Origin: Candidatus Methanomethylophilaceae archaeon
GTDB taxonomy: Archaea; Thermoplasmatota; Thermoplasmata; Methanomassiliicoccales; Methanomethylophilaceae
Direction: 5' to 3'
Length of the DNA stretch: 57,377 nucleotides
Assembly (NCBI GenBank): GCA_944321505.1
Contig: CALULN010000019.1
Span: 1 to 57,377 of the forward strand
Made by a program: the position numbers and the translations under genes. Under the pieces are notes generated by a model, which worked only from the letters and a program-made list of their open reading frames with translations, was not told the origin of the DNA and ran no database searches. Shown here one piece after another: positions 44,296-57,377 of this stretch; the stretch's first letter is position 1; each line of letters starts with the position of its first letter.

Positions 44296-44473
44296 TGTGA
44301 TCTACCTTGCCCTTACATACATCTGTGGTTTATATTGAGTGTGTATATTGGTGCAGTAGAAAACACGGAGTGTTGCGTCCTTTCTTCGTCTGTTGAGGAT
44401 GTGGTCTAAGAAACAGATATGTATGATGTCCGTTTGATTCCAGGCAGATTGTTTTTTTTGAGTGTGTGGTTTC

Positions 44474-45883
44474 ATGTCCGAAGGTTCAGATTATCAGAAC
44501 GCCGTTGCGGTGCTGGATGACATCCTGGATTCAAAGTGCCCCGGGGGAGAAGAGGCAGAATTCAAGTTCCGCGCTTACACTGAGAAAAAGTCGTCTTCGG
44601 AGCACATTAAGCTGGTGTATGCAGCGGTAAATGCGGTACGTCAGGCAGGGCCGATCTCCGTCATCAAATCATTATTCGTCAGGTTTCGGGGTTTCGTCGA
44701 CAAGTATGGTCTGCCGACGGTCGTGAGAGCGGGGATAGGCGTTCTGTCAGGTAATTTCCGGCTGGAAGATACGCCTTCGGAAGATGACTGTCCCTACTCT
44801 GCAGAGCCGCTATCAGAGCCGTGTTCCTCATTCCCTGGTGATGTGTTTGTTGTTGTTATGAACGTAGGCGGTGATGCGGAAGGTTGCATACGCCAACTTC
44901 GTTCCATCGGATTCAATGGGAAGTCGACAGTCATCAACCCATCCAATCCAGTCAGCGATAATGGCTGTGGCATTGCCAATGGGGGTGTGTGGACGGGTGG
45001 TTTGAACACAGCCATAGCATCATCTCCTGTCGAGAAGATCCTAGTCATGAAGGATACCTGCAGAGCAGAGTTGAAAGCTGTCGCATCACTGGTCGGACTG
45101 CTCGATCGTGCCAGCGCCGGGATGGCCGGTTGCAACATTATCAGGTCAAAAGATGAGACGGTGTGCTGTGGTGGGATGCTTCTGAAAGACGGAACGATGC
45201 TGTCAAACGATCTGTCTTCACAGAGATTCATGCTGCCAGGCTCCACCGTAGAAGTGGATTTCATCAACAACGGAGTGATTGCGTTCAGGAAGTCGGTCAT
45301 CGAGTCGTGTGGTCTCTTTGACAGCACATTCGGCAGTCTCAATGCCGCATTGACTGACATGTCTCTCCGCCTGAGAATGCGTGGGTTCTCCCAATTGGTC
45401 TCGCCGTTCCCTATGCTCATGTGCTTAGGCGTGGACTCCGACGTTTCGATCTCCGAATCGGACGCCTCTGTCCTTGCGAGCAGGTGGAGGGCATTCGTTT
45501 CATCGAATTACAGGGCTATGCGCCCCGAGGAGGCCGATGAGCTCCTGGCAAGGGACAGGAGAAACATCCTTGTGGTCATCGACAGCTGTGATGGCCTTCC
45601 GGTTGCAAACAGCGCGGAGGTTCTGGCCATAGGTCCGATTGCGCGCCCATCCGATCCAGCTCTGGAGCTCATACGCAGAGGCGGGATGAGATACACAGGT
45701 GTTTTTTCCAAGAAAGAGAGCGGAGAATCGTGGATGAAGAGCAATGCGATACTCTTTGACGAAATCCACCTGGTCGGAAAGAAGGCGGGGGAGTATCTGG
45801 CGTCTGCCAAATCCAATGGCAATGCCAGAGTCCTCTGTTACGATGATGCAGAGGCATTTGTTGAAGGGAGGCGTGTGCAATGA
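44474..45883 (+). CDS. Divergent GT2-like protein of the glycan cluster
   Basis: Encodes 469 residues from ATG 44474. The middle (about 115-330) resembles a rhamnosyl-type GT2: FVVVMNVGGDAEGCIRQL, NGGVWTGGLNTAI, ILVMKDTC (where the DxD should be), FINNGVIAFRKSVIESCGLF DS (two blocks). The metal-binding Asp pair is not evident, so activity may be changed or lost. The last 100 residues are another alpha/beta unit. No close family recognised. Codons are less GC-rich than the core. It overlaps the following GT4 gene. Confidence 0.6.
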   Translation: MSEGSDYQNAVAVLDDILDSKCPGGEEAEFKFRAYTEKKSSSEHIKLVYAAVNAVRQAGPISVIKSLFVRFRGFVDKYGLPTVVRAGIGVLSGNFRLEDTPSEDDCPYSAEPLSEPCSSFPGDVFVVVMNVGGDAEGCIRQLRSIGFNGKSTVINPSNPVSDNGCGIANGGVWTGGLNTAIASSPVEKILVMKDTCRAELKAVASLVGLLDRASAGMAGCNIIRSKDETVCCGGMLLKDGTMLSNDLSSQRFMLPGSTVEVDFINNGVIAFRKSVIESCGLFDSTFGSLNAALTDMSLRLRMRGFSQLVSPFPMLMCLGVDSDVSISESDASVLASRWRAFVSSNYRAMRPEEADELLARDRRNILVVIDSCDGLPVANSAEVLAIGPIARPSDPALELIRRGGMRYTGVFSKKESGESWMKSNAILFDEIHLVGKKAGEYLASAKSNGNARVLCYDDAEAFVEGRRVQ

Positions 45884-54974: not shown

Positions 54975-56357
54975 TCAGACGGCGGCGGATGCCGCCGTCT
55001 GGCTCTCCTTATCTCTGGCGAACAGGGACACCGCGGCGGCTATGACCGCCATCACCGCCGCCACTATGAACGCCGGCTCGAAGCCGGGGAGCATGAAGTG
55101 CATTATGGACGTCCCGGTCACGTAGTTGCCGATGGACAGCACCAGCACCGCCTGGAGCACGCACACCCCCATGGAGCTCCCTCCCTGCCTGAACATTATG
55201 ATCAGGCCGGACATCAGCCCCTCCCCGCTCCTCTCGATGTGCCTGTAGGCCAGGTTGGTGCTGGCCACCAGCGCCATGCCCACTCCCAGTCCCATGACGA
55301 ACAGGGATGCCAGCACGTACCACACCTGGGTGTGCAGCCCGAAGAAAGACATCATGACGAATCCGACTGCGCCCACCAGGCATCCGGCGGTGACGAACAT
55401 CCTGTTCTTCCCGGTCCTGTCGGAGGCCTTGCCCACGAAGGGGCCCACCACTATCATGCCAAGGGAGTTGGCGATCATGATCAGGCCCACGTACACTATG
55501 CCGAAGTCCATGTCCCCGAATCCCAGGACGTACTCCAGGTAGTAGGGTATCAGCAGGTAGCTTCCGGCCATGGCGCCGAACAGCAGCAGAGCGGACAGGT
55601 TGGATGCGAGGATGCTCCTCTCTTTTATGAGGCGGAACGAGATGATCGGGTCGGCGGCCCTCTTCTCCGCCTGCCACACCAGCAGCGCTCCGATCACGCC
55701 CATGGCCAGGATGGCCATGGAGTGCAGCGACGTCCATCCGAACTCGCTCCCCCTGTTGAGGAACAGTATGAATCCCGAGACCATGATGAACAGGCACACC
55801 GCGCCGGGGACGTCGATCCTCCTCCTCTCCGAGGGTGCGGCCTTCAGATCCATTGTCCTTAGGCAGATGGCAATACAGGCGATGCCGATGGGGACGTTGA
55901 TCAGGAAGATGTAGGACCAGTCGAACTGGGTCAGCAGTCCTCCCAGGGCGGGTCCGAATGCCGTGCCGGCGGACTGTGCCAGCGTCATGTACCCCATCTT
56001 GGTCCCCTGGGACTCCGGGAAGAAATAGGAGGCCAATGCCATGCTCATGGCCATCACCATGCCGGCCCCCAGGCCCTGGATCATCCTGAGGATGATGACC
56101 ATGGTGAGGGTCAGATGCAGCGATTCTGTGAGGAATATCAGCAGGGATGTGACCGTGAACACCGCTATGCCGGTGACGAACACCTTCGGGTACCCGATGT
56201 TGGTGCCGATCTTGCTCCACAGCAGCACGAAGCAGCAGAGCATCAGAGTGTATCCCAGAAGTATCCACGAGATGTCGGAGGTGTCCCCTCCCTGTCCGAA
56301 GGTCTCGGCCATGCTGGGAAGGGCGACGGACACCACGGTGGCGTCCAGGGCGGTCAT
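54975..56357 (-). CDS. MFS multidrug transporter, DHA2 (EmrB/QacA) type, N-terminus apparently frameshifted
   Basis: 460 residues from internal ATG 56357, with about 13-14 membrane helices. MTALDATVVSVALPSM is the D1 motif region and LRMIQGLGAGMVMA plus GPALGGLLTQFDWSYIFLIN VP are DHA2 signatures. Family members have 10-20 more residues before the first helix. A leaderless-type ATG at 56407 (attatc box near 56432-56438) reads MKKESGLLFT in another frame and stops after 17 codons, while the main frame has IILGGF upstream of its ATG. A single-base indel near 56375 would join them. Confidence 0.8.
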   Translation of the reverse strand: MTALDATVVSVALPSMAETFGQGGDTSDISWILLGYTLMLCCFVLLWSKIGTNIGYPKVFVTGIAVFTVTSLLIFLTESLHLTLTMVIILRMIQGLGAGMVMAMSMALASYFFPESQGTKMGYMTLAQSAGTAFGPALGGLLTQFDWSYIFLINVPIGIACIAICLRTMDLKAAPSERRRIDVPGAVCLFIMVSGFILFLNRGSEFGWTSLHSMAILAMGVIGALLVWQAEKRAADPIISFRLIKERSILASNLSALLLFGAMAGSYLLIPYYLEYVLGFGDMDFGIVYVGLIMIANSLGMIVVGPFVGKASDRTGKNRMFVTAGCLVGAVGFVMMSFFGLHTQVWYVLASLFVMGLGVGMALVASTNLAYRHIERSGEGLMSGLIIMFRQGGSSMGVCVLQAVLVLSIGNYVTGTSIMHFMLPGFEPAFIVAAVMAVIAAAVSLFARDKESQTAASAAV

Positions 56358-56528: not shown

Positions 56529-57377
56529 GGTGGTGTAACACTTTTTAGTTGATATTTTGTCTATAAAGATATGCCAGCATCTCGCGGATCGACCATCTGT
56601 GATCTGTCAGGCCCAGTTTCATCGCCGGAGTGATTGGGACGTATGTTCCGCCGTTGTCTCTCCTCCTCACCGAGATCGACGAATGCGGTGTGCAGAGGTT
56701 GTAGACGCCCCTCAGGATGTCCAGCGAGGCCTGGACGGCCTCCCTGGATCTTCCGAAGGTCACGGTTCTGCGTCTGGCGCGGGAGGAGAACAGACGGATC
56801 GTAAGGTTCATCCGCTCCACCGCAGACGTGTTCAGCAGATCGTCTGGCACATGGCCGTGCACCGAATACATCCTCACCTTCTTCAGTTTCATGCCATCTC
56901 TGGTCTTCTCCACAACGCCGTGGTTGAGATCCAGAAGCGCCACTCTGCGCGGACGTCCCGGACGGCCGCGTCCGCGGTTCCCGGGCACGAAACAGCTGAA
57001 TCTGCGGAAGAGGATGGTCAGATACGGACGGTAGCCGTCGGTTACGAAATACGGGATATGCCCGTCCCTCAGCTTGTCCAGCTGGACGTTGACGAAGCGG
57101 GAAGCCACTTTCAGACCGCGTCCGTCAGCTGACATAGCCAGCAGGTATTTCTCTTTGGCACAGAAAGAGGTCCAGATCCAATCCCCGTCCTCTCTGAAAT
57201 GGTCCCCTACCCGGAGGAGTTTTTTTTTAAAGTGTACTGCAGCTCGTCGAACTGCAGGACTTCGGGGGCGACGCCGCCGCCTTCAACCGCCGACGAGACC
57301 TTCGAGATGTGGGATCCAGCCCTCCTGACGACGCTCTGCACGGTCGTCGGGGAGCATTCGGCTATGGCCGCGGTCCT
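56529..57377 (-). mobile_element. IS1-family-like insertion sequence, partial
   Basis: The element enters from the right edge. Its transposase ends at 56545, 16 bases from GGTGGTGTAACAC (56529-56541), which resembles the GGT(G/A)ATG start of IS1-type terminal inverted repeats. The other end lies outside, so the target duplication cannot be checked. Confidence 0.55.
56545..57377 (-). CDS. IS1-like transposase in two frames joined at an A9 run
   Basis: The upstream frame enters at 57377 with an HTH (AAIAECSPTTVQSVVRRAG) and the first catalytic Asp in VLQFDELQY, and ends at TAG 57207-57209. The downstream frame, -1 relative to it, carries GDWIWTSFCAKEKYLLAMSA DG, the second Asp in FVTDGYRPY and the Glu in TSAVERMN, ending at TAA/stop 56545. 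They overlap at nine A residues (minus strand of 57220-57228). In IS1 a -1 ribosomal shift on an A-rich slip site makes the active fusion, so the layout fits programmed frameshifting. A simple indel is the alternative. Confidence 0.75.

Follow-up and report, generated by a model that had tools for sequence, protein, structure and literature searches.

An insertion sequence at the contig end

The window analysed here, i.e. the whole 57,377-nucleotide stretch from a Candidatus Methanomethylophilaceae archaeon, ends within an IS1-like insertion sequence of 1176 bp, whose right-hand approx. 850 bp occupy positions 56529-57377 on the minus strand. The copy runs off the contig end, and the part encoding the N-terminus of its transposase was found on another contig of the same assembly (C11:30301-30754, corresponding to L004 1802-2255). 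The last 127 bp of C11 are identical to the first 127 bp of the minus strand of the window (57251-57377; L004 2129-2255), an exact overlap of the type left by an assembler with k=127, and the total length of 1176 bp was obtained by joining both contigs in silico. The element is bounded by terminal inverted repeats of 30 bp each, which begin with GGTRGTG and are identical in 28 of 30 positions (GGTRGTGTAACACTTTTTAGTTGATRTTTT); the right arm, GGTGGTGTAACACTTTTTAGTTGATATTTT when read inwards, lies at 56529-56558 (minus strand) and the left arm on C11. No matching target duplication was seen between the left flank on C11 and the right flank in the window; a second copy may therefore have been truncated in the assembly, or two copies merged, and the left end on C11 and the right end on the window contig might belong to different copies. 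Adjacent to the element, the first listed ATG of a gene for an MFS transporter (54975-56357, minus strand) appears to deprive the protein of its N-terminus, with ERERTALYRIILGGF lying upstream in frame, and translation may begin at a codon other than ATG near the IS end.

The transposase is distributed over two frames. The 0-frame gene, orfA, contributes its C-terminal 56 residues to the window (57207-57377, minus strand) and after the join with C11 encodes 144 amino acids, with zinc-finger cysteines, a helix-turn-helix (HTH) region and the C-terminal end QFDELQYTLKKNSSG followed by a stop. The first catalytic aspartate (D1), recognised from the sequence and alignments in the motif QFDELQ (QFDE), is encoded by codon 57248-57246. 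Shortly downstream, nine consecutive A residues (57220-57228, minus strand) form the presumptive slip site, read in the 0 frame as TTA AAA AAA AAC TCC TCC GGG TAG, in which the heptamers A_AAA_AAA (57228-57222) and A_AAA_AAC (57225-57219) are both in phase. The 3' portion of the site is indeed AAA AAA AAC, as the initial annotation had stated; the orfA stop, placed there 14 bases past the run, does follow shortly after it, with the TAG (57209-57207) ending at a distance of 13 nt, not 14. The second frame, orfB (56545-57282, minus strand), is the -1 frame and opens upstream of the run, with 245 open codons and 225 residues from the slip site onwards. In agreement with the earlier reading, it carries both the second catalytic aspartate (D2, VTDG, codon 57039-57037) and the catalytic glutamate (VERMNLT, codon 56817-56815). 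The first ATG in this frame lies 29 codons beyond the run, within the catalytic core.

Such a run is exceptional in this genome: A9 occurs once in the window, against 0.04 occurrences expected from shuffling, and is the longest A/T run of the 1.385 Mb assembly, in which exact runs of 6, 7, 8 and 9 number 64, 9, 4 and 1, respectively. The four runs of eight include one on C7 and one in the window, both between ORFs, one on C14 that looks intergenic, and a fourth on C20. The one in the window, a T8 at 44452-44459 (A8 on the minus strand), immediately precedes an ORF at 44462-45883.

The C-terminal half was modelled from its alignment with a mean pLDDT of 71. The predicted order of elements is a beta-strand (residues 15-21), a second strand (26-33), a helix, a strand (58-61) with D2 directly after it, a helix, a strand, an inserted sheet and the helix bearing Glu136. 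This order is, according to the model, that of an RNase-H core devoid of beta-1, which would begin at beta-2 and leave the D1 strand in orfA; the top PDB matches of the model were retroviral integrases, though weak ones (probability up to 0.91, E 0.16). With the core divided in this way, neither half should function as a DDE enzyme by itself, as had been proposed from the sequence.

Conservation, mobility and selection of the two-frame layout

Relatives were gathered by searches at the family, order, class and phylum levels and by one scan of GTDB contigs, with identities ranging from 70% to about 20%. Counting the window copy, 25 distinct copies, all from the same phylum, span the junction with both halves. 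Of these, 21 have the C-terminal half in the -1 frame, at a run of eight or nine A residues about 7 residues past D1, where, in the joined proteins inspected, the run codes for a pair of lysines; these copies come from the window's own family, from a second family in its order and from further groups within the phylum, and fall into four tree clusters. The remaining four (L009, L066, L094 and L103) show a +1 relation. L009 has G4 instead of G5 just 3' of the slip site, L066 and L103 have A7, and L094 has A8-G-A5; L009, L066 and L103 can be accounted for by a single further indel, G5 becoming G4 or A8 becoming A7. A continuous frame at the site of the A run was found in none of the 25 copies. 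The initial annotation had named sister copies with a continuous frame and eight or ten A residues as the sign of a mutant or a sequencing error; this test did not refute the proposal, the relatives with eight and with nine A residues being all split. The IMG/VR scan revealed no viral carriers, and the long ORFs of L072 and L073, considered as possible single-frame relatives, were discarded, as their sequence resembles a different type of transposase.

The surroundings of the run vary among lineages. The 0-frame codons are CTA AAA AAA ACA TGA in L007, TTA AAA AAA AGA TGA in L010, CTT AAA AAA AAC TAA in L012, CAA AAA AAA GAT in L016, CAA AAA AAA CAG in L045, GTC AAA AAA AAA CAG in L062 and GTG AAA AAA AAC AAA in L067. 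The run thus begins on any of the three codon positions depending on the copy, which makes its length, and not its phase, the constant feature: every -1 copy has at least eight A residues and an in-phase A_AAA_AAA or A_AAA_AAC, and most lineages have a C directly 3' of the run, giving AAC as in IS1.

The two-frame form is mobile in a relative. The complete genome G050 contains three copies that differ in their flanks, each with a target duplication of 8-9 bp (attacact, tatgtaaat and aaagtaat); two have identical intact ORFs and the third an indel in orfA, and the differing duplications indicate that the two-frame form transposes. The third copy (L026, G050:C1) is otherwise near-identical, has its own 9-bp duplication and carries the indel at about codon 65; it may be a derivative that was mobilised in trans, or the indel may be an error. 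Duplications of 8-9 bp flank the relatives L007, L026, L034, L008 and L009, with 9 bp in the latter two. It should be noted that L009/L036 (GenBank SUSV01000002), while retaining an intact 9-bp duplication, would need a +1 and not a -1 shift owing to its G4 past the slip site.

Both halves are under purifying selection, as judged from dN/dS ratios of 0.12 (N-terminal half) and 0.13-0.25 (C-terminal half) in comparisons with unsaturated dS. The lysine codons of the slip site are AAA in 24 out of 24 cases (two per copy in 12 copies), versus 139 AAA to 133 AAG in the remainder of these genes. The nominal log10 P of about -7.8 ignores shared descent and is too strong for that reason; the bias towards AAA is nevertheless clear.

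Relationship to IS1 and to known recoded genes

Members of the IS1 family generate target duplications of 8-10 bp and have terminal inverted repeats of about 20-35 bp, a range that includes the 30 bp of the window element; in IS1 itself, the -1 shift joins the HTH ORF to the DDE ORF at a point upstream of D1. The fused protein matched the NCBIfam model of the IS1 transposase (NF033558) with E=1.3e-14 and 54.6 bits, below the cutoff of 100, over residues 27-211 and thus across the junction, compared with E=0.0019 for the C-terminal half alone. With PF03400, the window protein scored below the cutoff of 24.1, and the divergent relatives L062 (35.3) and L067 (27.9) above it. We consider the element, from these matches, to be a distant relative of the IS1 family. 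It appears to share with the InsA/InsAB' system of IS1 (A6C motif) the combination of zinc finger, HTH and DDE domains; both have two overlapping frames in a -1 relation at A_AAA_AAC and terminal repeats close to 30 bp in length, and target duplications of 8-9 bp occur in relatives of the window element. IS1, in which these repeats are imperfect, uses frameshifting to make InsAB', and InsA represses (PMC12428005), a function that would also be expected of the short product here.

The analogy with IS1 drawn in the initial annotation is upheld by the match of the fused protein to the IS1 model, but does not extend to the position of the shift. In E. coli IS1 the site lies approx. 24 residues before D1, and in the Deinococcus element L077 it also precedes D1, whereas in the window element it is about 7 residues downstream of D1, so that, unlike in IS1, the catalytic core itself is split. 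Further differences are the length of the run (A6 versus A8/A9 in the archaeal group), the size of the element (768 versus 1176 bp), the lack of a detectable downstream structure in the archaeal group and the low identity, IS1 being absent from the matches of the fused protein in the search of plasmid-borne proteins. Natural IS1 copies that have A5 or A7 where A6 is usual, and whose InsA and InsB' share a frame and are annotated as a single ORF, were encountered on enterobacterial plasmids (L080 and L081).

ISCaa4 of Amoebophilus asiaticus, also of the IS1 family and with a predicted -1 shift, is related to elements of methanogens, but has the heptamer AAAAAAG and a stem-loop predicted downstream (PMC3196728). 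Among the plasmid-borne protein matches, IS1-like elements of Meiothermus, Acaryochloris, Deinococcus and Gloeothece have the same domain order and length class, but a continuous frame and no A run at the homologous site. An unannotated cyanobacterial IS1-like element on a plasmid of Gloeocapsopsis dulcis (L078) has the post-D1 -1 layout at CAA AAA AAC, which shows that this arrangement is not exclusively archaeal; elements with exactly this layout may already stand in ISfinder. In the tree, the single-frame bacterial elements are placed among the four clusters of post-D1 elements, and the post-D1 shift is therefore either old, with losses, or was gained repeatedly.

Outside the family, the closest archaeal parallels are fucA1 of Saccharolobus solfataricus and the Mg-chelatase gene of Methanocaldococcus/Methanococcus, both with -1 recoding at A-rich slip sites (PMC8211752, PMC3711429), though these are cellular enzymes and not transposases. 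A review of 2021 lists fucA1, a cellular gene, as the one reported archaeal case of -1 frameshifting, along with suggestions in haloarchaeal viruses and Mg-chelatase (PMC8211752). The Roseiflexus IS630 and other elements with transcriptional slippage likewise have a transposase across two frames joined by slippage (PMC5009743); IS630 belongs to another transposase family.

Probable recoding at the A run and its significance

The best explanation of these data, strongly supported by the comparison of sequences, is a programmed -1 recoding of the transposase, and we are confident that the window element, an IS1-like insertion sequence from a Methanomethylophilaceae-type archaeon, is intact and that its transposase would be made only after such an event on the A run. 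Translation without recoding would yield the 144-residue protein with the zinc finger, the HTH and D1, which, by analogy with InsA, probably binds the element ends and acts as a repressor. In a minority of events, a -1 slip on the run would produce a fusion of approx. 365 residues, uniting beta-1 and D1 with beta-2 to beta-5, D2 and the glutamate into a working DDE transposase. The slip would probably be mainly ribosomal, through tandem tRNA re-pairing on A_AAA_AAA or A_AAA_AAC.

A recent mutation, or a homopolymer error of sequencing or assembly, in a normally continuous gene might at first sight explain the split, given that such runs are prone to error, that the window ends near the site, at an assembly edge, and that decayed copies exist (L006, L010 and L026). 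We consider this reading ruled out by the comparative data, its residual probability being negligible: the -1 split recurs in 21 of the 25 copies, in many genomes and assemblies, including the single-contig G050 and MAG contigs from GenBank, and a continuous sister is lacking among all 25. In another reading, coupled re-initiation at overlaps resembling ATGA would yield two separate polypeptides, one per ORF, that come together as a split enzyme; in its favour, an ATG overlaps the orfA stop in L007, L008, L010 and L006 (ACATGA, AGATGA). This start codon is not conserved, however, being absent from the stop in L012 and L017 and first occurring in the window element inside the core, and a separate C-terminal half would be devoid of beta-1 and D1; re-initiation was accordingly rejected as highly improbable.

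Within programmed recoding, the slipping agent may be the ribosome or the RNA polymerase. The candidate -1 frameshift of the initial annotation gains support, as far as recoding is concerned, from the copies with the -1 relation (21 of 25), translational slippage being the more probable form. In the latter, the archaeal RNA polymerase would add or drop A residues on A8/A9, placing a fraction of the mRNAs in frame and giving the same fusion. This is known for many insertion sequences (PMC5009743; title of PMC1088944) and would agree with the presence of at least eight consecutive A residues in all -1 copies, although A_AAA_AAC needs only six, with the variable codon position at which the run starts and with the lack of a 3' hairpin. 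Indeed, a stimulatory 3' structure, which is common in programmed -1 ribosomal frameshifting but not required, did not emerge consistently when the 60 and 90 nt after the run were folded in 15 copies and compared with 200 shuffles; the nearest relatives, of the element's own clade, were less stable 3' of the run than the shuffles (z about +1.7), and no Shine-Dalgarno-like element was found beyond that forced by the Asp-Glu codons. On the other hand, the C that follows the run in most lineages is not needed for polymerase slippage, L078 shifts at the equivalent position with only A7, and codon phase is uninformative, since any run of eight A automatically holds an in-phase A_AAA_AAN. We favour the ribosome on the basis of the in-phase heptamers, of the X_XXY_YYZ pattern, in all -1 copies, the prevailing C as in IS1 and the A7 of L078, and regard slippage by the polymerase as possible but the less probable of the two.

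Recoding by a -1 shift has rarely been reported in archaea, while the device itself is well known from bacterial IS1; what is unusual here is its location inside the catalytic core. With the site between D1 and D2, the truncated product would combine the whole DNA-binding module with the strand that bears D1. It can be put forward only tentatively that archaeal IS1-like elements, as a group spanning the phylum, have the recoding site in the RNase-H core and use the archaeal RNA polymerase as the slipping agent; if the polymerase does slip, the elements would represent a natural archaeal system of transcriptional slippage. The survey adds roughly 20 archaeal sites, diverse and conserved and all located in mobile elements, and gene callers will cut such transposases into two pieces. 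These sites form natural slip cassettes, with A8 or A9 placed in any of three codon phases and C or G as the next base, for probing slippage of the archaeal ribosome or RNA polymerase, and they indicate that IS1-type elements can shift the recoding site across the first catalytic residue.
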